Below, piece by piece: positions 2,303 through 20,632 of a stretch of 64,000 nucleotides of DNA (position 1 is the first letter of the stretch; every line of letters starts with the position of its first letter). The stretch is taken from positions 1 to 64,000 of the forward strand of contig NZ_JALZWP010000003.1 of assembly GCF_023336755.1 (NCBI RefSeq), written 5' to 3'. Position numbers and translations under genes: made by a program. A model generated the notes under the pieces. That model ran no database searches, was not told the origin of the DNA, and was given only the letters and a program-made list of their open reading frames with translations. The stretch is from Roseinatronobacter domitianus. Lineage in GTDB: Bacteria > Pseudomonadota > Alphaproteobacteria > Rhodobacterales > Rhodobacteraceae.

Positions 2303-3094
2303 CTAGGGAAGCTGTGCCGCGACCGCACGCGCGGTCAGAACCTGCGTAAGATGTGCACGATAAGAGCCGCTGCCATGCAAATCCGCAATCATGTCTTCAC
2401 TTGGCCTCGCCAACGCCTCTACAGAATTGGGTGAAAACTCATCTGCAAGGGCTGCTTCTGCGTCCTGCCAGCGGAAGACGCCTGCTTCAGATGCGCCCGT
2501 GACCGCAACGCGCACTGCATCTGCAAACCGGGCAACAAACACGCCGGTCAAGGCAAAGCGCGATGCGGGTTGCCAGAATTTCTGGTAAGAGGCCGACACC
2601 GGGATCGGGAACCGCACTTCGGTAATAATCTCATCCTCTTCCAGATCGGTGAAGAACATGCCCTGAAAGAACTCATCGGCCGCAATGCTGCGCTGTGGTG
2701 TGATAATGGTGGCACCTGATGCCAGCACGGCAGACGGGTAGCAGGCGGACGGGTCGTTATTGGCCAGACTGCCGCCAATGGTGCCGCGGTTACGCACCGC
2801 CGGATCACCAATATTTGCAGCCATATCGGCAAGGGCCGGGTAAATATCGCGCGCTTGTGCTGCAACGGTTGCATGCGTGGTCATCGCACCAATGCACAAC
2901 AGATCATCTGTTACGCGCAGCCCCTGAAGATCGCGGATCGCGCGCAGGCTGACCAGTTTGGACGGCGCAGCAAGCCGGGATTTCAGTGTCGGGATCAGGG
3001 TCTGACCGCCCGCCAGGGGTTGCGCTTCTTCTTCGGCCAACGCTGTCAGCGCATCCTCTAGCGTGGTGGGGGAGACAAGGTCGAATGCATGCAT
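2303..3094 (-). CDS. Molybdenum hydroxylase FAD-binding (medium) subunit, CoxM-like
   Basis: The 263-residue protein starts MHAFDLVSPTTLEDAL and contains LAGGQTLIP (about residue 30) and IGDPAVRNRGTIGGSLANNDPS (about residues 95-116). These are the two FAD-contact motifs of the CO dehydrogenase/xanthine dehydrogenase medium subunit. Length is typical (about 260-290). It is preceded by GGAAACG before the ATG and follows the 2Fe-2S subunit by 21 bases. Together with the small subunit here and the large subunit at 17.3-19.6 kb it should form a three-subunit molybdenum hydroxylase that passes electrons Mo to FeS to FAD. The gene order (large subunit 14 kb away) is unusual. Confidence 0.92.
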   Translation of the reverse strand: MHAFDLVSPTTLEDALTALAEEEAQPLAGGQTLIPTLKSRLAAPSKLVSLRAIRDLQGLRVTDDLLCIGAMTTHATVAAQARDIYPALADMAANIGDPAVRNRGTIGGSLANNDPSACYPSAVLASGATIITPQRSIAADEFFQGMFFTDLEEDEIITEVRFPIPVSASYQKFWQPASRFALTGVFVARFADAVRVAVTGASEAGVFRWQDAEAALADEFSPNSVEALARPSEDMIADLHGSGSYRAHLTQVLTARAVAAQLP

Positions 3095-3115
3095 CTTATC
3101 GTTTCCTTCCGTCCA

Positions 3116-3604
3116 TCATTGCGCAAAGGCGTCAGCGGAGGGCATCTGGCCAGAAGCCGCAAGCGCCGCTTTCACGATATTGGCATAGCCGGTGCACCGG
3201 CAGATATTGCCTTCCAGATGATGACGTATCTGGGCCTCTGTGGGTTTAGGAGTGTGGCGCAAAAGCGCGCTGAGCGACATGATCATGCCCGGCGTGCAAT
3301 AGCCGCATTGCAGCCCGTGATGGTCCTGAAACGCCTTTTGCAGGGCCGACAGCGAGCCATCCTTGTTTTCCATGTCTTCAATGGTGCGCACCTCTGCTCC
3401 GTCAAGCTCTCCGACGAACATGGTGCAGGATTTTATCGCCATACCATCCACATGGACCGTGCAGGCACCGCACTGACTGGTGTCGCATCCAACATGGGTG
3501 CCGGTCAGATTCAGGGTCTCTCGCAGGTAATCGACCAGCAGTGTCCGGCCTTCGACATCGGCAGTGACAGACCGACCATTGACCGTCATGGTTATCTTTT
3601 GCAT
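3116..3604 (-). CDS. Molybdenum hydroxylase 2Fe-2S (small) subunit, CoxS-like
   Basis: The protein has about 162 residues from the ATG at 3604, chosen because AAGGAGAG lies five bases upstream; a longer upstream reading adds a non-conserved tail. An N-terminal plant-type ferredoxin fold carries [16 protein letters not shown] and a C-terminal helical domain carries CGYCTPGM and GNICRCTGY. These eight cysteines hold two 2Fe-2S clusters in this family. It is the electron-transfer subunit of the molybdenum hydroxylase with the CoxM-like gene just downstream. It lies 58 bases after the SLC13-type carrier gene on the same strand and is very probably cotranscribed. Confidence 0.94.
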
Positions 3605-3662
3605 CAGGTCTCTCCTTCTATAGCTGGCCGCGTCAGGGCGCATGCCTTGCTTGTCGTTCAAC

Positions 3663-8673: not shown

Positions 8674-9738
8674 TCAGGGCGCGCGCAATCTCTCAGCCAT
8701 CCAATCCGCCATAAGCGGGCGCACCTTATATGGAATATTGTCACAGACGTGGTTTCCATCCGCAAAAACTGTCAGCTCTGCATCAGACCCCAACTCATCG
8801 ATCATGCGCTGCGATTCCGCGACCGGGCAGACATTATCCTGTCCGCTATGCACGATCAGGACAGGACAGCGCACATTGGCAAGCACCCCCGCAAGCGTAT
8901 ACTCGCGCGCCAGTTCTGCGCCTTCGGCCAATGTGCGCACCCCGAACGCATAGCAAATGGAATCGGTGGTCCCTTTCGGCATCCGCGACCAGATCGCACC
9001 CATGTCGTAAAACCCCCCGATGCTGATACAAGCGCGCAACCTTGGGTCAGTCGCCCCTCGAAGGGCGCAATACGCTCCAAAGCTACGCCCCCATAAACCT
9101 ATACGGGCCGGATCAATCTCTGCGCGCGCGCAAAGCATATTTATGACTGCGCCAATCGGCGCTTCATAATCTGGACGCAGCTTCATGTTGGCCCATGTCA
9201 GCCCCTGCCCAGGCCCGTCATAGCTGAAGGTTGCCACACCACGGGCCAGAAACTCGTTCTCCAGGCTGTGAAACTCTTCCTTCGTCGAATCCGCTCCGGG
9301 GTTTAGCAAAACGCAAGGCGCAGGGCCTGATGAATTCAGTGGCAGCCGCAGGTTGCCCACGAATTCAATCCCCTCGAATGGCACGCTTAGTTGTGCGGCA
9401 GGGGGCTGAAGAAATGGCGCGGCGCGCAGGTAAGCTGCAACTTGCTGGCGCTGCATGCGCTGCTTTTCCGCCGGATCATCGACATAAACGAACTGCCCGA
9501 AATGGTGGTAGAGCGCGGCCTTCTGAAAAGCTGCCCCCGCCGAGACAGTCCGACCTTCCGCCAAGGCCGCCTCGCCCAACTCCTCACGCATAAGGGCGAG
9601 CGACTGCCACGCGGCAGGCCAATCCTCTATCCGCGAAATATCGCGCATCAGCGACTGGATATCGTTGTAATCCACCCCAGCCGCATACAATCGAGGCAGC
9701 CGGTCGCGCAGGGTTTCCGCCAGAAGATCGTCGGCCAT
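8674..9738 (-). CDS. Alpha/beta hydrolase resembling 2,6-dihydroxypseudooxynicotine hydrolase
   Basis: The 354-residue protein has an N-terminal helical region (about 1-115) and then an alpha/beta hydrolase domain: NPGADSTKEEF (oxyanion side), nucleophile elbow GRSFGA with Ser219, acid Asp301 (HSGQDNVCP) and His330 (ADGNHVCDN). Size and triad spacing match the C-C bond hydrolase of nicotine breakdown, DHPON hydrolase (triad 217/300/329 from my recollection); its extra catalytic Glu is not obvious here. FrsA-like esterases share the fold, so the reaction is inferred. ATG at 9738 follows AAGGAGGG. The gene is divergent from the aldolase operon and shares its regulatory region. Confidence 0.8.
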   Translation of the reverse strand: MADDLLAETLRDRLPRLYAAGVDYNDIQSLMRDISRIEDWPAAWQSLALMREELGEAALAEGRTVSAGAAFQKAALYHHFGQFVYVDDPAEKQRMQRQQVAAYLRAAPFLQPPAAQLSVPFEGIEFVGNLRLPLNSSGPAPCVLLNPGADSTKEEFHSLENEFLARGVATFSYDGPGQGLTWANMKLRPDYEAPIGAVINMLCARAEIDPARIGLWGRSFGAYCALRGATDPRLRACISIGGFYDMGAIWSRMPKGTTDSICYAFGVRTLAEGAELAREYTLAGVLANVRCPVLIVHSGQDNVCPVAESQRMIDELGSDAELTVFADGNHVCDNIPYKVRPLMADWMAERLRAP

Positions 9739-9787: not shown

Positions 9788-9841
9788 GTCGATGATAAAT
9801 TATAAGCTAGCTTGACATAATAATCATCGATAGTCTAGCAT
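9788..9841. promoter_or_regulatory. Divergent promoter region with two operator-like half boxes
   Basis: On the plus strand TTGACA (9812-9817) is followed after 18 bases by TAGCAT (9836-9841), and the spacer holds AATCATCGATAGT. On the minus strand a perfect TATAAT lies at 9804-9799, with a second TCGATGATAAAT copy at 9789-9800 in the opposite orientation. The two TCGATGAT words form an inverted pair about 35 bases apart. Both divergent genes (hydrolase at 9738, aldolase at 9880) could be controlled from here. Confidence 0.65.
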
Positions 9842-9879: not shown

Positions 9880-11295
9880 ATGCTGGGACACGACATTCGC
9901 GCGGATCTTGCGATGGCTTGCCATGTTCTTGCGGCGCATCGAATTATTGACCTTTGGGGGCATCTGAGCATGCGTATTCCCCGAAGCGAACACATCCTCA
10001 TGACCCCGCGTTTTGGCACCACAGCGTGGCCGCGCGGCCTGACTGCGGGTCAGATGCTGGTCGTCGATCTGGATGGCAATATCGTGGACGGTGCGGGCGA
10101 ATTGCCTATTCAGGCCAAGACCGATCTGGCGCTTTACCGTCGCGATCCCGGCGCAGGCGCCTGCATCAGCTTTTCACCACGCTATGCGATGGCTGCTGCG
10201 ATAGCGGGCTTCGAACTGAAGCCGATGACGCATATGGAAGCCTTCATTTCTTATGACACCCATGTCTGGAACTGCGCCGAACTGGCCGTTACGTCCGCAG
10301 CCGCAGAAGATCTGGCTGCGCTATTGGCGAGGTCCATTGCCGTCCAGCAGCCCGGAATTGCCGCTTGGGTAAAGGGCGAGTCGCTGCTCGAAACACTGCT
10401 GGCCGCTTATCATCTGGAATATTTAGGCCAACAGAACAGCATTATTGCAAACATGGACGTGACCACGCTTTGCAAGCGCGAAGATTCCGAAAAGATGTGG
10501 CGCCAGTTTGCAGGCTGGGACCATTATGTCGATTTCTTTCACTCGCTGGACCCAGGCCCCCTGCCCCACCCCGCGCAGTCGCTTAAAGAGACGCAGGACC
10601 AGGATGAACGGCAGCACATTCTGCAATCTGCAAGCATTGCCTGCAAAGCGCTTTGGGAGCGCGACACGCTGGTCGCCTTTCTGGAACACGTTAGCCACAG
10701 GCTGCCAGAAGATGACCGCATGATTATCAGCGCCGCGAAGAACTTTTCAATGGTTGCGCCCGAAGACATGTGCGTGACGGACCTTCGCGGCAATTGGATC
10801 AATGGCCCCAAGCCGCCGGGCTACAAGTTCATCCACGCGCAGATATTGGCAGAACGACCAGATGTGCAGGCTATTGTGCATACCCACGACCTGTATGGCC
10901 GCAGTTACGCATTGTCGCGCCACGAACTGGTTCCGATGACCCGTCTGGGGCTTGATGTGGCGCTGCGGCCTCTGCCGGTCTACCCGCGTTGCGATCTGGT
11001 TGTAGATGTTGATGTGCGCCGCGATGTGATCGACCTGCTGGGCGATGGGCCCATGGTTCACGAAGCCTGCCACGGAACCGATTTTGTTGCCGATACGCTG
11101 GAGCAGGCACTGGTCGACGCAATCCAACGCGAGCAGTTTTTGGAAATGGACCATCTGGCGCGGCGCTTCGGCGGCGTTAATCCCATGCCGACAGCGCGAG
11201 AACACATTCAGCAGAATGAGTTTTCAGCCAAGGATTGGTGGTGGTTCTACACCGCCGAAATCAACGCGCCACGCCGCAGCGCGGCGGGGCTGTGA
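9880..11295 (+). CDS. Tandem class II aldolase/adducin-domain protein
   Basis: The 471-residue protein is built of two class II aldolase/adducin domains (about 5-185 and 255-450); usual members have one domain of 210-260 residues. The C-terminal domain keeps a metal site (His334-Thr-His336 in AIVHTHDLYG, and His398). In the N-terminal domain the corresponding positions read Ser97-Phe98-Ser99 and lack the late His, so that copy should not bind metal. The usual glutamate before the LYRARPDV-type segment is also replaced in the C-terminal domain (PPGYKFIHAQIL), which points to a decarboxylase or lyase other than a sugar aldolase. ATG follows AGGGG. It is first in the rightward operon. Confidence 0.85.
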   Translation: MLGHDIRADLAMACHVLAAHRIIDLWGHLSMRIPRSEHILMTPRFGTTAWPRGLTAGQMLVVDLDGNIVDGAGELPIQAKTDLALYRRDPGAGACISFSPRYAMAAAIAGFELKPMTHMEAFISYDTHVWNCAELAVTSAAAEDLAALLARSIAVQQPGIAAWVKGESLLETLLAAYHLEYLGQQNSIIANMDVTTLCKREDSEKMWRQFAGWDHYVDFFHSLDPGPLPHPAQSLKETQDQDERQHILQSASIACKALWERDTLVAFLEHVSHRLPEDDRMIISAAKNFSMVAPEDMCVTDLRGNWINGPKPPGYKFIHAQILAERPDVQAIVHTHDLYGRSYALSRHELVPMTRLGLDVALRPLPVYPRCDLVVDVDVRRDVIDLLGDGPMVHEACHGTDFVADTLEQALVDAIQREQFLEMDHLARRFGGVNPMPTAREHIQQNEFSAKDWWWFYTAEINAPRRSAAGL

Positions 11296-11327: not shown

Positions 11328-11543
11328 ATGGCGATGAGCCTTGAATACATGAAAGCGCAGCTGACACAGGATATGGGCAGATGTCCAATCCCAGATGGCT
11401 CTTTGCTGACCTATGCGGCAACTCTGGCTGATCTTTCGGACCAAATCAACATGGCGGCCAAGGCGCTACAGCCCGAAGACGAAGCCGCCGGATTCTCGGG
11501 TTTCCTTGACAGCTTTGCGCAGACATCAAACCATGCATTCTGA
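11328..11543 (+). CDS. AtzG/GatC-like small subunit (DUF4089-type)
   Basis: A 71-residue protein (MAMSLEYMKAQLTQDMG...) with AGGGGA before the ATG. It is mostly helical and contains DLSDQINMAAKALQPEDEAAGF near the middle. Its size, helical pattern and position immediately before a GatA-type amidase match AtzG, the small partner of AtzE in cyanuric acid degradation, a relative of GatC. Its stop codon overlaps the amidase start by 11 bases, so equal synthesis is likely. The assignment rests on context and size more than on strict motifs. Confidence 0.65.
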   Translation: MAMSLEYMKAQLTQDMGRCPIPDGSLLTYAATLADLSDQINMAAKALQPEDEAAGFSGFLDSFAQTSNHAF

Positions 11544-12936
11544 CTTGACCCTGACTGAAGCCAGCGACGCGCTGGCCCGTGGCGACATCACCTCCGAGGC
11601 GCTGACGGCCACTGCGCTTGACCGGCTGGAGCAAACCGGCAAACCGCTAAATGCCGTTATTGCGCTGAACCGCGAAAACGCACTGGAGCAGGCGCGCGAC
11701 TGCGACAAGGCTCGCGCACGGGGCGACCGGTGTGGCGTGTTGCACGGCATACCCCTTGCTCACAAAGATCTGTTCTACCGCGCTGGCCGCGTGTCCACAT
11801 ATGGATCAGCTATACGCGAGGGTTTTGTGCCCAGCGTTACGGCAACTGCGCTGACACGGCTGGACAATGCCGGAGCGCTGGACATCGCCACTTTGGCGTT
11901 GTCGGAATTCGCGTTCAGCCCCACAGGGTTTAACCGGAGGTTCGGCTCTGGCCGCAACCCATGGAACAGCAAACACATCGCAGGTGGGTCTTCCAGCGGA
12001 TCGGCCATTGCAACCGCCGGGCGTATGGTATTCGGGGCGCTGGGAACAGACACCGGCGGTTCGATCCGCCATCCTGCTGCGGCCTGTGGCGTGGTCGGTC
12101 TTAAACCAACATTGGGCCGGGTGAGTCGCTTCGGTGTTGGTCCGCTGTCGGCAAGTCTGGATTGTGTTGGCCCGATTGCCCGCACAGCGCGCGACTGCGC
12201 CCGCCTCTTATCGGTCATTGCCGGGCAAGATGCAGCGGACCCAAGTGCATCATTGGCCGACGTTCCCGATTATGAGGCCACGCTCGACGGCAACCTGACG
12301 GGCCTGCGCATTGCCGTGCCAAGAGCTTTTCACGACGCACCGCTAATCGCGGAAGTTGCCCAGAAGCTAGAGGCCAGCATCGAGGTGCTGCGCGCACGCG
12401 GAGCACAGATTATTGACTGCCCGGCCCCTGATCTGGGGCCTGCAAATGCACTGGGTCAGGCGGTGATGGCTGTCGAAGCAGCCGCGGTCCATCGACCATG
12501 GCTTGCCGAACGGCGGGATGATTACGCAGAGGTTGTTCGCAGCCGTATAGAACCGGGGCTATTCCTTTCGGCAACGCAATACATGAACGCATTGCGCGCC
12601 CGTCGGCAGGTTTTGCAAGACTATATGAATGTCGTTTTCGCACAAGCCGATCTCGTGCACCTTCCGATGTTCGCATCTGCCGTTCCAACAATTGCCCAGA
12701 CGACGGAAGGCCCGCCAGAGATCATTGCAGCCTCACTGTCAGCATTGACCGCTTTCACGCGCAGCCTGAACTTTCTTGGTCTACCTGCAATCTCGGTGCC
12801 AGCAGGATTTACGGAAAATGGCCTGCCCGCCGCGTTTCAGCTTGCCGGGCGTCCCTTTGCAGAAGCGACCTTGTTGCATGCCGCCGACGCTTACCAGATG
12901 GACACGGACTGGCACCGAAAATTGCCGCCGGTTTAA
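11533..12936 (+). CDS. Amidase-signature family hydrolase (AtzE/GatA-like)
   Basis: The 467-residue protein from ATG 11533 has the full amidase signature triad: Lys78 (GIPLAHKDLF), cis-Ser153 (AGGSSSGSA) and nucleophile Ser177 (GTDTGGSIRHPAA); Ser153 to Ser177 is the usual 24 residues. It cleaves a C-N amide bond and releases ammonia or an amine. The start was chosen by homologous N-terminus (DLTLTEASDAL) and by overlap with the small AtzG-like gene. The AtzE-type complex acts on small ureide/amide acids, consistent with nitrogen removal from a ring-opened intermediate. The exact substrate is unknown. Confidence 0.88.
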   Translation: MHSDLTLTEASDALARGDITSEALTATALDRLEQTGKPLNAVIALNRENALEQARDCDKARARGDRCGVLHGIPLAHKDLFYRAGRVSTYGSAIREGFVPSVTATALTRLDNAGALDIATLALSEFAFSPTGFNRRFGSGRNPWNSKHIAGGSSSGSAIATAGRMVFGALGTDTGGSIRHPAAACGVVGLKPTLGRVSRFGVGPLSASLDCVGPIARTARDCARLLSVIAGQDAADPSASLADVPDYEATLDGNLTGLRIAVPRAFHDAPLIAEVAQKLEASIEVLRARGAQIIDCPAPDLGPANALGQAVMAVEAAAVHRPWLAERRDDYAEVVRSRIEPGLFLSATQYMNALRARRQVLQDYMNVVFAQADLVHLPMFASAVPTIAQTTEGPPEIIAASLSALTAFTRSLNFLGLPAISVPAGFTENGLPAAFQLAGRPFAEATLLHAADAYQMDTDWHRKLPPV

Positions 12937-13002: not shown

Positions 13003-13854
13003 ATGAAACTCTTGCGCTGGGGGCCAAAAGGTCAAGAAAAGCCGGCAATACTGGATAAGCAGGGGACGGCACGCGACCTTTCCGGACTGGTTCCCGATAT
13101 TGCCGGACCAGTCTTGAGCGATACTGGCCTTGCAATGCTGCGCGGACTTGACACTGCAAACCTGCCACAAGTTCCTCAGGATGCCCGGCTGGGGCCTTGC
13201 GTTGGCCAGACCGGCAAGGTGATCTGCATCGGGTTGAATTATTCAGACCACGCCGCAGAAACGGGTGCTCAGGTGCCGCCGGAACCGATTACCTTCATGA
13301 AGGCAACATCGGCACTGTGCGGGCCAAACGATCCGATCATCATACCGCGCGGGTCTGAGAAAACAGACTGGGAGGTGGAGCTTGCGATCATTATCGGCAC
13401 CACGGCGCGCTACGTCAGCGAAGACAACGCTTTAACGCATGTTGCGGGCTATGCGGTGGCAAATGATGTCAGCGAACGCGCATGGCAGATGGAACATTCA
13501 GGCCAGTGGACCAAAGGAAAAAGCTCTGACAACTTCGGACAGGTCGGGCCATGGCTGGTAACGCGCGACGAAGTTTCCGACCCGCAGGCTTTAGGCCTAT
13601 GGCTCAGCGTGAACGGGAGCAAGAAACAAGACGGCTCTACCAAGACAATGGTGTATGGCGCAGCATTTCTTGTGAGCTATCTCAGCCGCTTCTTTACGCT
13701 GCATCCAGGCGACATTGTTATGACCGGCACTCCTCCGGGCGTGGGCTTGGGGATGAAGCCGCCGCAATTTCTTAAACCCGGCGATGTCGTTGAATTGGGG
13801 ATCGATGGGCTGGGGCAACAGCGTCAGGACGTTGTCGTAGACCCGCGGGGCTGA
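13003..13854 (+). CDS. Fumarylacetoacetate hydrolase (FAH) family protein, copy 1
   Basis: The 283-residue protein has the FAH core: CIGLNYSDHAAETG (about residue 73), the metal ligands in DWEVELAIIIG and the downstream Asp in VANDVSERAWQ, then KSSDNFGQVGPWLVT and a C-terminal MTGTPPGVGLGMKPPQFLKPGD. AAAAGGAAG precedes the ATG. Family members hydrolyse beta-dicarbonyl C-C bonds, decarboxylate oxaloacetate-like acids or act as ureidoglycolate lyase. It sits 66 bases after the amidase. A second, diverged copy lies at 20.7-21.5 kb, so two different steps are likely. Confidence 0.92.
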   Translation: MKLLRWGPKGQEKPAILDKQGTARDLSGLVPDIAGPVLSDTGLAMLRGLDTANLPQVPQDARLGPCVGQTGKVICIGLNYSDHAAETGAQVPPEPITFMKATSALCGPNDPIIIPRGSEKTDWEVELAIIIGTTARYVSEDNALTHVAGYAVANDVSERAWQMEHSGQWTKGKSSDNFGQVGPWLVTRDEVSDPQALGLWLSVNGSKKQDGSTKTMVYGAAFLVSYLSRFFTLHPGDIVMTGTPPGVGLGMKPPQFLKPGDVVELGIDGLGQQRQDVVVDPRG

Positions 13855-17263: not shown

Positions 17264-19615
17264 TCAGTCCGATTTCTGGCGCGCATCCTCTATCGCCTGC
17301 CACACCCTGTAGGGCGTTGCCGGCATATCAAGATGCCGGATACCCAAGGGCGCAAGTGCATTGATCACGGCATTCATATAGGCAGGCAGGGCACCTACTG
17401 CGCCCGCCTCGCCCGCACCTTTTATGCCCAAGGCATTATTGGTGCTTGGCACCGGATTGGATATAACGTCGATCATGGGCAAATCTGATGCGCGCGGCAT
17501 TGGATAATCCATGAACGACCCGGTCAGAAGTTGCGCGGAGTCGGCGTCGAAGACAATTTCCTCTCCTGCGGCCTGTCCGATACCTTGTGCAACGCCACCG
17601 TGTATCTGGCCCTTGACCAGCATGGGGTTCACCACCGTGCCTACATCGTCAACCACCAGATAACGCTCAATGCTTACCCGGCCGGTTTTCGGATCCAACT
17701 CTACCTCGCAGACATGCACGCCGTTCGGGAAATTGGCCTCGGGCGGAACGACAATTGCCGACGCCCCCAGCCCCATGTCCCAATCCAGCGGCAGCTTGCC
17801 GCGTATGAACGACGCACGCGCGACATCCTCGATCCGGATATTGCGGTTGCTGTCGCGGACGTGGAATGTGCCCTCGGCAAAATCAATCTGTGCGGGGTCG
17901 GCTTCCAGCAGATGCGCGGCTATTTCCTTGGCGCGCGCAAGCACCTTGTCCGCAGCGCGCTGCAATGCCAGCCCCCCGGCCATAGCCGAACGAGACCCGA
18001 ACGTGCCGCGCCCATGAATAACCCGATCAGTGTCGCCAGACGTTACGCGGACGGCTTCGGGTTGCACGCCCAGAAATTCGACAGCCATCTGGCGAAAGGT
18101 TGTCTCGTGACCTTGGCCATGGTTCTGCGTGCCCATCAGCAGGGTCACGCCCCCACCAGTGTCAAAGCGTATTTCCGCGCCTTCTTCATTGGTATTGCGA
18201 AACGGGCCGCCCGCGATCTCTATCGCGTTGATTAGCGCTATGCCACGCAACATTCCGCGCGCTTCAGACTGTTTTTTCCGCGCCTCGAACCCCTTGTAGT
18301 CAGAGGCGTCCAAGGCGATATCCATGTTCTTCTCGAACTCACCCGTATCATAGACGAACAGAAACCCGGTATCATAGGGCATTGCAGAGGCAGGGATCAG
18401 GTTGCGGCGCCGTAAGTCCACCGGGTCTATGCCCAGTTCTTGTGCCGCCAGGTCGATGACACGTTCGATGGCATAAGTGGCTTCGGGACGGCCCGCACCG
18501 CGATAGGGTGCTGTTGGCTGTGTGTTTGTGAACACGCCAAGAACTTCGGCATGAATGGCTGGCGTGGTATAGACACCCGATAACCCGCCCAGATTGTTCG
18601 TCGGTGAATGGGGTGTGTTGAACCCTAGATAAGCACCCAGATTGGCCTTCGTTCGCACCCTCAGCCCCAGAAATGTGCCCGCCTTGTCCAGGGCAAGCTC
18701 AACATGTGTGAAATTGTCTCGCGCATGGAAATCCGACAGGAAAGATTCTGAACGAGTGGCGGTCCAACGCACAGGGCGGCCCAGTTTTTTCGCCGCCCAA
18801 AGGACAAGTATATGTTCAGGATACGGGCTGCCCTTCATCCCGAATGCCCCGCCGACATCGGGTGCAATCACGCGCAGGCGCATTGGGTCGATCCCCAAGG
18901 TGTTTTCAGCAATCTCACTTCGAATTTTGTGAGGAATCTGAACGCCCGATGTCAAAGTATAGCGGTCGTCTATCGCGTCATAGCTTCCAAGCGCGTTGCG
19001 CGGCTCCAGCGCATTGGCGGAAACACGGGTCACACGAAAATCCAGACGGGTCACATGGTCGGCCTTGGCAAAGGCACTTTCTACTCGCGCAGAGTCGCCG
19101 GCTTCGAAAACAAAGGAAATGTTATCATCTACCAGCCCCGGCCAAACCGCAGGGGCGTCAGGCTCGGCCGCGGCCAGCGCGCTGCCGACGGCCTCAAGGG
19201 GCTCATACTCGACCTCGACCAAATCGGCGGCATCGCGCGCGGCATTGCGCGTTTCGGCAACAACGATCGCCACACCTTCGCCAATAAAGCGAACCCTCTC
19301 AATCGCAAGCGGGTAAAAGGGCGGGCGCTCCATCGGGGTGCCATCGCGCTTGTGGCGCTGGACCATGGTGTGCAAGCGGCCAATGCCATCCGCGATCAAG
19401 TCTTTCCCGGTCAGCACGCCCAGCACGCCCGGATGCCCTTCGGCCTCTGATGTGTCGATATCAAGAATTCGCGCCGCCGCATGGGGCGCGCGGATCACGG
19501 CCATATAGGTTTCACGCGCTGCGACAATGTCATCGACATAGCGCCCGCGACCGGTGGTCAGGCGACGATCTTCTGAGCGCGGAATGGATTGTCCAATGCC
19601 TGCATGCGGTGTCAT
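17264..19615 (-). CDS. Molybdenum hydroxylase large (molybdopterin-binding) subunit
   Basis: The 783-residue protein has an N-terminal xanthine-dehydrogenase a/b hammerhead domain (about 20-135) and the molybdopterin domain. Cofactor-contact motif GGAFGMKG lies at 255-262, the active-site loop reads APYRGAGRPEA at 369-379, and the catalytic base is Glu736 in GIKGAGEAGAVGALP. True form I CO dehydrogenase has a CSFR loop there, so this is not CO dehydrogenase but a hydroxylase of an organic (often N-heteroaromatic) substrate. Start follows GGAGCAACAG. It is third in the operon FAH - decarboxylase-like - large subunit. Its FAD and FeS partners are at 2.3-3.6 kb. Confidence 0.93.
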   Translation of the reverse strand: MTPHAGIGQSIPRSEDRRLTTGRGRYVDDIVAARETYMAVIRAPHAAARILDIDTSEAEGHPGVLGVLTGKDLIADGIGRLHTMVQRHKRDGTPMERPPFYPLAIERVRFIGEGVAIVVAETRNAARDAADLVEVEYEPLEAVGSALAAAEPDAPAVWPGLVDDNISFVFEAGDSARVESAFAKADHVTRLDFRVTRVSANALEPRNALGSYDAIDDRYTLTSGVQIPHKIRSEIAENTLGIDPMRLRVIAPDVGGAFGMKGSPYPEHILVLWAAKKLGRPVRWTATRSESFLSDFHARDNFTHVELALDKAGTFLGLRVRTKANLGAYLGFNTPHSPTNNLGGLSGVYTTPAIHAEVLGVFTNTQPTAPYRGAGRPEATYAIERVIDLAAQELGIDPVDLRRRNLIPASAMPYDTGFLFVYDTGEFEKNMDIALDASDYKGFEARKKQSEARGMLRGIALINAIEIAGGPFRNTNEEGAEIRFDTGGGVTLLMGTQNHGQGHETTFRQMAVEFLGVQPEAVRVTSGDTDRVIHGRGTFGSRSAMAGGLALQRAADKVLARAKEIAAHLLEADPAQIDFAEGTFHVRDSNRNIRIEDVARASFIRGKLPLDWDMGLGASAIVVPPEANFPNGVHVCEVELDPKTGRVSIERYLVVDDVGTVVNPMLVKGQIHGGVAQGIGQAAGEEIVFDADSAQLLTGSFMDYPMPRASDLPMIDVISNPVPSTNNALGIKGAGEAGAVGALPAYMNAVINALAPLGIRHLDMPATPYRVWQAIEDARQKSD

Positions 19616-19645: not shown

Positions 19646-20632
19646 TTAATCGACAAGCCGCAATGTAGAGGGGTGAAACAGCTCTTCCGGAGCGACCTTT
19701 CGGCTGGCCGTGCCATCAGCATGCATGTAGCGGGTCATCGCCTCCAACTCGGCGCGGTTGCGCTCAAAGCCATATGGCCATGGGTCGCCGCCGGTTATCG
19801 CCATCGTATCGGCATAGTCATGCGCGGCCCATGGCAGCGAAATTCGCAACACATTGCCAAGTGCCATTTCGTCCTGACGCATTCGCTTGGCCTTGGAAAA
19901 CGCATTGAACAGCGCCTCGGGCAACCATGGGTGTGCTTCGGCGATATCTTTGCGCAATGCCAGCGCATGCATGATCGGGAAGAAACCGGTCTTGTGATAA
20001 TAGTCAACCTCTGCGGCTCGCAGGTCTGGGTAGAGCCGCGCAATCCTTGGATCGCCGCGCAGCAGACTGGCCGGAACGCGCGGGCTGATAATGGCATCCA
20101 GACGCCCGGTCAAAAGCATCTCATCCAAGGTGTCGTCTGTATCGATGGGTTTGACCACGATGTCTTCTGGCAGCTTTATGGCAATCCGTTCTCCCGCACT
20201 CGGGGCATTGAGCCCGCCGACATGCCATGTCACATCCGACGCTGCGACCCCTTCGTCGGCCATCATACCGCGGACCCACATAGCAGCGGTTTGCTGGTAT
20301 TCCGGGACCCCGATTTTGGCACCTTTCAAATCCGCCAAAGATGAAATCCCGGCCCCTGAGCGAATGAATATCGCAGAATGTCGGAATGCTCGCGACAGGA
20401 ACACAGGAACCGCAATGTAATGCGCGTCTCCGCGTGCTGTTGTTATGATATGGCTCGACATCGACAATTCGGTCAATTCGAAGCTTTGATTGTTGAGTGC
20501 TTCTCTAAAGATCGCCTCTGGCTCGGAAAAATTCATCCCGATCTTGCAACCAGGCACGTCTACCTCGCCTGTAGCGAATAGCCGCGTGCGGTCCGTCGCA
20601 ACGCAGGTGATGGTGAATTCGGGTTTGCTCAT
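19646..20632 (-). CDS. 4,5-dihydroxyphthalate decarboxylase-like protein
   Basis: The 328-residue protein has a periplasmic-binding-protein fold but no signal peptide (MSKPEFTITCVATDRTRLF), as in cytoplasmic 4,5-dihydroxyphthalate decarboxylase (Pht5). Matching segments are EALNNQSFELTELSMSSHI, IPVFLSRAFRH-like IAVPVFLSRAFRHSAIFI, IGVPEYQQTAAMWVRGMMAD and the C-terminal DPWPYGFERNRAELEAM. It may decarboxylate a dihydroxylated aromatic or pyridine acid. A periplasmic ABC binding protein is the alternative, but no ABC permease genes are nearby. AGGTAG precedes the ATG. It lies 37 bases after the FAH gene. Confidence 0.8.
   Translation of the reverse strand: MSKPEFTITCVATDRTRLFATGEVDVPGCKIGMNFSEPEAIFREALNNQSFELTELSMSSHIITTARGDAHYIAVPVFLSRAFRHSAIFIRSGAGISSLADLKGAKIGVPEYQQTAAMWVRGMMADEGVAASDVTWHVGGLNAPSAGERIAIKLPEDIVVKPIDTDDTLDEMLLTGRLDAIISPRVPASLLRGDPRIARLYPDLRAAEVDYYHKTGFFPIMHALALRKDIAEAHPWLPEALFNAFSKAKRMRQDEMALGNVLRISLPWAAHDYADTMAITGGDPWPYGFERNRAELEAMTRYMHADGTASRKVAPEELFHPSTLRLVD

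Follow-up and report, generated by a model that had tools for sequence, protein, structure and literature searches.

Two fused class II aldolase-fold domains that may divide one active site between them, encoded in a candidate catabolic gene cluster of Roseinatronobacter domitianus

INTRODUCTION

The closest described relatives of the protein analysed here include two decarboxylases, HMPDdc from Mesorhizobium loti (3-hydroxy-2-methylpyridine-4,5-dicarboxylate decarboxylase; PDB 2z7b) and PhtC (3,4-dihydroxyphthalate decarboxylase), three Fe(II) oxygenases, namely pyruvic oxime dioxygenase (POD), NovR and TqaM, and the L-fuculose-1-phosphate aldolase of E. coli (FucA). The class II aldolase family protein of Arthrobacter keyseri pRE1 is taken here to be PhtC. 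In both FucA and POD the active site sits in the cleft where subunits meet, and the neighbouring subunit contributes Tyr113' and Tyr233', respectively (PMC11841055). DhbB, a further class II aldolase, takes part in 3-carboxy-2-hydroxymuconate semialdehyde decarboxylation (PMC6362003). The fold and the superfamily are known; the literature searched gave no description of a fusion in which active-site residues are sorted between the halves, and no paper on class II aldolases in tandem or duplicated form came up in the searchable literature, outside which most subscription journals lie.

Here we describe such a fused protein, encoded in the window, by which we mean the whole 64,000-nucleotide stretch of contig NZ_JALZWP010000003.1 of Roseinatronobacter domitianus that was analysed. 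Our preferred account, to which we give an even chance, is that two class II aldolase-fold domains have been fused into a pair that divides one active site, and that this pair is perhaps a decarboxylase of an N-heteroaromatic carboxylate.

RESULTS

Two aldolase domains in one chain

The original prediction placed two aldolase/adducin domains in a single 471-residue chain, and the open reading frame, its frame, strand and length and the two PF00596 matches all agree with this (Table 1). When each half was scanned alone, PF00596 matched the N half with 57 bits and the C half with 70.7 bits, both above the 22.2-bit cut-off, and a profile of the N halves matched a profile of the C halves over 167 columns (hhalign E 3e-6, probability 88). 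The best NCBIfam model for the window protein was L-ribulose-5-phosphate 4-epimerase, at 100 bits against a cut-off of 251, and the second was the PhtC model NF053537, of which the protein falls far short (85.6 bits against a cut-off of 200).

Table 1. Features of the fused gene and its surroundings in the window (residue numbers are those of the 471-residue protein)
Feature	Position	Strand	Evidence or comment
Molybdenum hydroxylase FAD and Fe-S subunits	2303-3094 and 3116-3661		
Divergent alpha/beta hydrolase; nearest solved structure: 2,6-dihydroxy-pseudo-oxynicotine (DHPON) hydrolase	8674-9738	-	2jbw E 4.3e-52
Two-domain class II aldolase/adducin-fold protein	9880-11295	+	471 aa; open frame
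N domain, residues ~1-230, aldolase fold, without metal ligands	9880-10569	+	PF00596 E 3e-15; model residues 2-227 against 2z7b
Q78, opposite FucA Glu73, N half	10111-10113	+	Q in 8/8
S97-F98-S99, opposite HxH metal motif	10168-10176	+	His at neither 97 nor 99 in 8/8 N halves
H118 (THM motif), opposite FucA Tyr113 and the invariant His of HMPDdc-like rows	10231-10233	+	N 8/8, C 0/8; proposed trans residue for C-half site
I160, opposite third metal His (FucA H155)	10357-10359	+	I or V in 8/8 N halves
C domain, residues 242-447, aldolase fold with metal site	10603-11220	+	PF00596 E 1.8e-19; model against 6btg
Y315, opposite FucA Glu73, C half; invariant K316 next	10822-10824	+	Y or F in 8/8, F in 4/8
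H334-T335-H336, metal ligands 1 and 2	10879-10887	+	8/8 C halves
R355, trans position of C half	10942-10944	+	R in 8/8
H398, metal ligand 3	11071-11073	+	8/8 C halves
Conserved C-terminal tail: D452, WWWF 453-456, APRRS, GL	11233-11292	+	columns invariant in fused-family alignment
Small ORF, 71 aa, between aldolase-like gene and amidase	11328-11543	+	overlaps amidase start (inferred 11533)
AtzE/GatA-like amidase	11533-12936	+	PF01425 E 1.3e-99 for 11503-12936; start inferred from frame
FAH-family hydrolase	13003-13854	+	PF01557 E 5.2e-73
Molybdenum hydroxylase large subunit	17264-19615	-	
4,5-dihydroxyphthalate-decarboxylase-like protein	19646-20632	-	9jp7 E 1e-77, sole PDB match

A scan of genome contigs from 84,980 species, with a four-member alignment and two peptide patterns as query, returned at least seven further loci, in each of which the N site is lost and the C site kept. 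The fused form is represented by eight proteobacterial proteins, window included, with 54-82% identity to that of the window: four from Rhodobacteraceae, among them Roseinatronobacter thiooxidans, one from Alphaproteobacteria and one from a Proteobacteria MAG, and two from Betaproteobacteria MAGs. Three of the seven loci were also met among the 60 relatives sampled, two of those genomes belonging to the window's genus. With its own genome counted, the fused form occurs in 4 of the 60 relatives, 2 of 385 genomes of the class and 1 of 398 genomes of the phylum (the best four candidates per genome being scored in the phylum sample), and it is rare in the class and phylum samples. A PF00596 search of 120 genomes gave, among the matches listed, two matches in one open frame for the window only. 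Phage records held no match to the fused protein, viral contigs scanned with the fused family and with HMPDdc-like rows held no relative, and none of the 15 plasmid records with a match contained 80% of the query, so that no fused member was found there.

The metal site and the catalytic positions

The 16 halves of the eight fused proteins were aligned with 26 proteins that each contain a single aldolase domain (19 from the phylum sample, 4 from the relatives sample, the A. keyseri protein and E. coli AraD and FucA; two were trimmed at the N end). All three metal histidines are present in the eight C halves and in 26/26 one-domain proteins, and none of the three is present in any of the eight N halves. 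The HTH at 334-336 and His398 that the C-terminal copy was said to keep were thereby verified in the window protein, as was the SFS at 97-99 of an N-terminal copy without a late His, the late position being Ile160; the dead metal site claimed for the protein corresponds to an N half that has no metal His in 8/8 members. Since the identical architecture and losses recur in 8/8 fused proteins, we confirmed that the two-domain architecture with its losses is real and is neither a chance arrangement nor a sequencing error.

The catalytic Glu had been described as altered in the C-terminal copy, which holds (Tyr315), but not for that copy only, because the N-terminal copy is altered too (Gln78). 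In the MAFFT alignment Y/F315 stands opposite the Glu and Lys316 opposite the Arg that follows it, and in the HMMER alignment two HMPDdc residues, the Glu among them, are gapped out of the C half; judged by either method, the Glu is gone from the C half. At the FucA Glu73 position Glu is present in 2z7b, in 6/6 HMPDdc-like rows and in the A. keyseri row, and absent from 8/8 C halves, which is why the chemistry cannot be the one that HMPDdc uses. FucA Glu73 and Tyr113 are both replaced in each half, by Q78 and H118 in the N half and by Y or F315 and R355 in the C half. These replacements make it likely that the enzyme catalyses something other than aldol cleavage, in line with the original prediction.

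Active-site residues are sorted between the halves

To compare what each half has kept, we used six one-domain proteins (L006, L018, L023, L024, L025 and L036), called HMPDdc-like because they carry the LERxIH-type motif of HMPDdc, the motif being the sole ground for the label. Thirty-nine alignment columns are invariant among these six rows, and a residue was scored as kept when present in 8/8 halves. By this measure 13 columns are kept by the C half alone, 4 by the N half alone, 3 by both and 19 by neither. The 13 include H319, R326 and D328 besides the three metal histidines, and the four are D24, P51, H118 and L145. Near exceptions are R46 and L154 (L018 numbering), scored as C-alone and present in 7/8 N halves, and G41 and A165, scored as neither and likewise present in 7/8 N halves. 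H118 aligns with FucA Tyr113, which acts on the adjacent subunit. The cis metal ligands are thus found in the C half, and the residue that is expected, by analogy, to act in trans is found in the N half.

The N half is less conserved than the C half, with 60/195 invariant columns in its core against 86/180. Over 6 of the 28 pairs, dN/dS was 0.05-0.16 for the N half and 0.06-0.14 for the C half; dS is above 1 in several cases, and those values are rough. The N half is not decaying, and both halves are under purifying selection. Loss of the ligands from a sequence that is nevertheless conserved would also be expected if the N half were a regulatory or ligand-sensing domain outside the active site, which comes close to the regulatory half of the original prediction. 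We regard this as improbable: the N half keeps a trans histidine that the C half has lost, the active site of POD and FucA sits in the inter-subunit cleft (PMC11841055), and nothing points to regulation. The N half looks instead like a partner that supplies trans residues.

Predicted structure of the fused protein

The final AlphaFold2 model was built from the fused sequences together with 15 one-domain rows, which MAFFT placed over the C half, and reached a mean pLDDT of 84.3 and a pTM of 0.86. The 15 rows were drawn from 24 viral-contig loci (L040-L063), the remainder of which were near copies or partial. A first model, made from 8 close sequences, was set aside (pLDDT 54.8). Two of the IMG/VR viral contigs carry class II aldolase-like genes (L044 908-1789 and L046 956-1771) that keep HxH and the late His and have Phe 15 residues before HxH, where other rows carry His.

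In single-chain comparisons with Foldseek and VIA-align, residues 2-227 of the model superpose on HMPDdc 2z7b (Z 23.9, rmsd 2.3 over 221) and residues 242-447 on deoxyribose-phosphate aldolase 6btg (Z 22.6, rmsd 3.3 over 204). NovR (Z 23.4) and POD (Z 23.3) match the fold of the N half as well as HMPDdc does, because Z gaps below 1 count as ties, and POD, NovR and TqaM are all among the best fold matches of the model. Both halves of the predicted model are of aldolase/adducin fold; an N half of some other fold, the outcome that would have told against the original prediction, was not borne out by structure prediction and superposition. Because the pTM is 0.86 for a chain of two domains, the model also suggests that the halves are packed in a fixed, defined manner. 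In the conserved C-terminal tail, residues 461-471 have pLDDT below 50.

Kinship and origin of the two halves

In the tree the N halves form one clade and the C halves another, each with support of 100/100. Both fall into a group that also includes PhtC and the six HMPDdc-like rows, with support (93/87) short of what the tool marks as firm, and the Glu-less adducin-like rows lie outside it; POD, NovR and TqaM were absent from this tree. Within the group, the C halves stand beside the PhtC row (85/71), a placement flagged as possible long-branch attraction, and the neighbours of the N halves are the HMPDdc-like rows (86/79). Long branches (1.8) lead to the N and the C halves alike. A tree forcing the N and C halves into one clade was 4.84 log-likelihood units worse, with an AU p of 0.106, so that the duplication named in the original prediction is neither shown nor rejected; the tree is compatible both with an internal duplication and with a fusion of two paralogues.

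The HMPDdc-like profile matches the N half with E 3.5e-16 and the C half with E 7.6e-18. Among PDB sequences, 2z7b is the top match of the single sequence and of the N profile and the fourth for the C profile. The highest-ranking PDB sequences in the C-profile search are those of fuculose-phosphate aldolases, which precede NovR 9ryg in third place (E 4.7e-10) and HMPDdc in fourth.

The decarboxylases known among the relatives have retained the Glu that this protein lacks, and for that reason the main competitor of a decarboxylase is a POD-, NovR- or TqaM-type non-haem Fe(II) oxygenase, in which the C half would act on a ring or a side chain and the N half would be the same structural partner. 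The Glu-less solved relatives in our alignments include NovR and TqaM, the profile and fold searches give these oxygenases the high ranks described above, and the sequence of POD shows three His but lacks counterparts of FucA Glu73 and Tyr113 (PMC5216522 and PMC11841055). The grouping of both halves with PhtC and the HMPDdc-like rows nonetheless argues the other way, in a tree that holds no oxygenase sequences, and neither the compensating Glu164 of POD nor its N-terminal helix was identified in the alignment. As far as the sequences allow a judgement, we consider an oxygenase unlikely, if still to be taken seriously.

Somewhat less probable again is that the C half is another kind of lyase or an epimerase, carrying out a retro-aldol reaction, a hydratase reaction, or the breakage of a C-C bond in a hydroxy acid that derives from a ring. 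Membership of the superfamily, the epimerase that heads the NCBIfam models, the aldolases that head the PDB matches of the C profile, and the FAH-family and DHPON-hydrolase-like hydrolases encoded nearby are all consistent with such an enzyme, but the NCBIfam scores lie far under their cut-offs and neither half retains FucA Glu73 or Tyr113.

Gene neighbourhood

The genome context of the two-domain members was compared across the fused loci. An amidase homologue lies directly downstream of the fused gene in 6/8 loci (backed by Pfam in the window, L015 and L016) and a nitrilase-family gene in the remaining two (L013, and L014 by an open frame of very similar sequence), so that a gene for a C-N hydrolase of the amidase or nitrilase family follows in 8/8. 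All six amidase loci have a counterpart of the small ORF before the amidase, 64-71 aa long; none of the five tested matched a Pfam family above cut-off. The small ORF of the window, at 11328-11543, presumably resembles the AtzG/GatC small subunits, judging by its place and size. Between the aldolase-like gene and its divergent upstream neighbour, at 9792-9841 on the + strand, TTGACA-18-TAGCAT and ATGATA-18-CATAAT are promoter-like as consensus matches only.

Eighteen genes at 1349-21536 (~20 kb) look like one catabolic cluster. They comprise genes for a GntR regulator, a three-subunit molybdenum hydroxylase, a CoxG-like gene, DASS and TRAP transporters, the DHPON-hydrolase-like hydrolase, the fused aldolase, the amidase, two FAH hydrolases, an asparaginase, an aldo-keto reductase, an MFS transporter and the 4,5-dihydroxyphthalate-decarboxylase-like protein. 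Homologues of 18/18 are found in R. thiooxidans (L009, L010) and of 15/18 at the Rhodobacteraceae locus L017, which is without the CoxG-like gene, the FAH gene at 13003-13854 and the MFS gene. Among distant loci, L015 has TctC/TctA transport and FAH genes, L016 has a TctC gene, and L013 has genes for a luciferase-like monooxygenase, an FAH hydrolase and an NMT1-type protein. The luciferase-like monooxygenase (L013 370-1461) is possibly a ring-opening oxygenase that replaces the molybdenum hydroxylase. In the window the molybdenum hydroxylase genes are split, with those for the FAD and Fe-S subunits at 2303-3661 and that for the large subunit at 17264-19615. The 4,5-dihydroxyphthalate-decarboxylase-like protein is a second decarboxylase candidate of the cluster, although family models call it a substrate-binding protein, which makes its name a likely mis-annotation trap.

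From this gene content we infer that the pathway may be one for catabolism of a carboxylated N-heteroaromatic compound. Nothing fitting such a pathway appeared in the literature among the matches listed.

DISCUSSION

A decarboxylase, as the original prediction had proposed by way of example, remains the best lead for the chemistry, given the tree group with the PhtC and HMPDdc-like rows (93/87) and HMPDdc as the top fold. Against it stand the absent Glu of HMPDdc, the epimerase model of NCBIfam and the aldolases at the top of the C-profile search, and the cluster already has a decarboxylase candidate in the gene at 19646-20632. We rank a decarboxylase first, an Fe(II) oxygenase second and another lyase or epimerase third.

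In the arrangement that we favour, a fused pair sharing one active site, two chains would form a four-domain ring in the order N-C-N-C, a pseudo-tetramer like the fuculose-aldolase tetramer. By the geometry of a head-to-tail ring with a twofold axis, this order would make each C site border an N half. The metal site of each C half would be completed by H118 from the adjacent N half, the N pockets would be blind, with R355 of a C half opposite them, and the ring would hold two composite active sites rather than four. The substrate may be an N-heteroaromatic carboxylate that is hydroxylated and chelates metal, or the product of opening its ring; it would be decarboxylated or, less likely, oxygenated or cleaved, and the neighbouring amidase or nitrilase-family enzyme would serve as pathway partner by hydrolysing a C-N bond. 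The variation of transport and oxygenase genes among distant loci speaks against this explanation.

More tentatively, and with doubts outweighing our confidence, we suggest that the protein is an obligate heterodimer in one chain, with cis ligands in one half and a trans acid/base in the other, with two rather than four sites in each ring, with a chemistry that does without the Glu and is unlike that of the decarboxylases compared, and with a role in an undescribed pathway for N-heteroaromatic carboxylates. The fused protein would be a clean, conserved example of subunit specialisation after fusion, in which the residues that one site draws from two neighbours have been sorted into separate halves. 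If this reading holds, the catalytically important interface residues of the fold can be read from what each half has kept, and the fused enzyme marks a catabolic gene cluster. For annotators, the name 'class II aldolase' may mislead when given to the fused protein.

Among known systems, HMPDdc is the best fold match of the model, sharing its THM motif with the N half and its His triad with the C half. It consists, however, of one domain that carries both a triad of its own and the Glu (LERYIH), whereas the fused protein splits the motifs over two halves and is without the Glu. PhtC groups with the C halves and supplies the second NCBIfam model, but it too is a single domain with the Glu, the window protein scores below its cut-off, and the join in the tree may be long-branch attraction. 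POD, NovR and TqaM resemble the C half in fold, in their three His and in having no Glu at the Glu73 position; they differ in being single domains, and the N-terminal helix that is essential in POD, according to PMC11841055, was not identified in the fused protein. FucA has the fold in common and shares the metal triad with the C half, from which the fused protein departs by its replaced Glu73 and Tyr113 in both halves, by the fusion and by having half the metal sites. Adducin, finally, offers a likeness to the N half, since its class II aldolase domain is catalytically inactive and yet has been retained within a tetramer (PMC12599920); in the fused protein, by contrast, the dead half is joined to a C half with a complete triad, so that the metal site is not lost from the protein as a whole.
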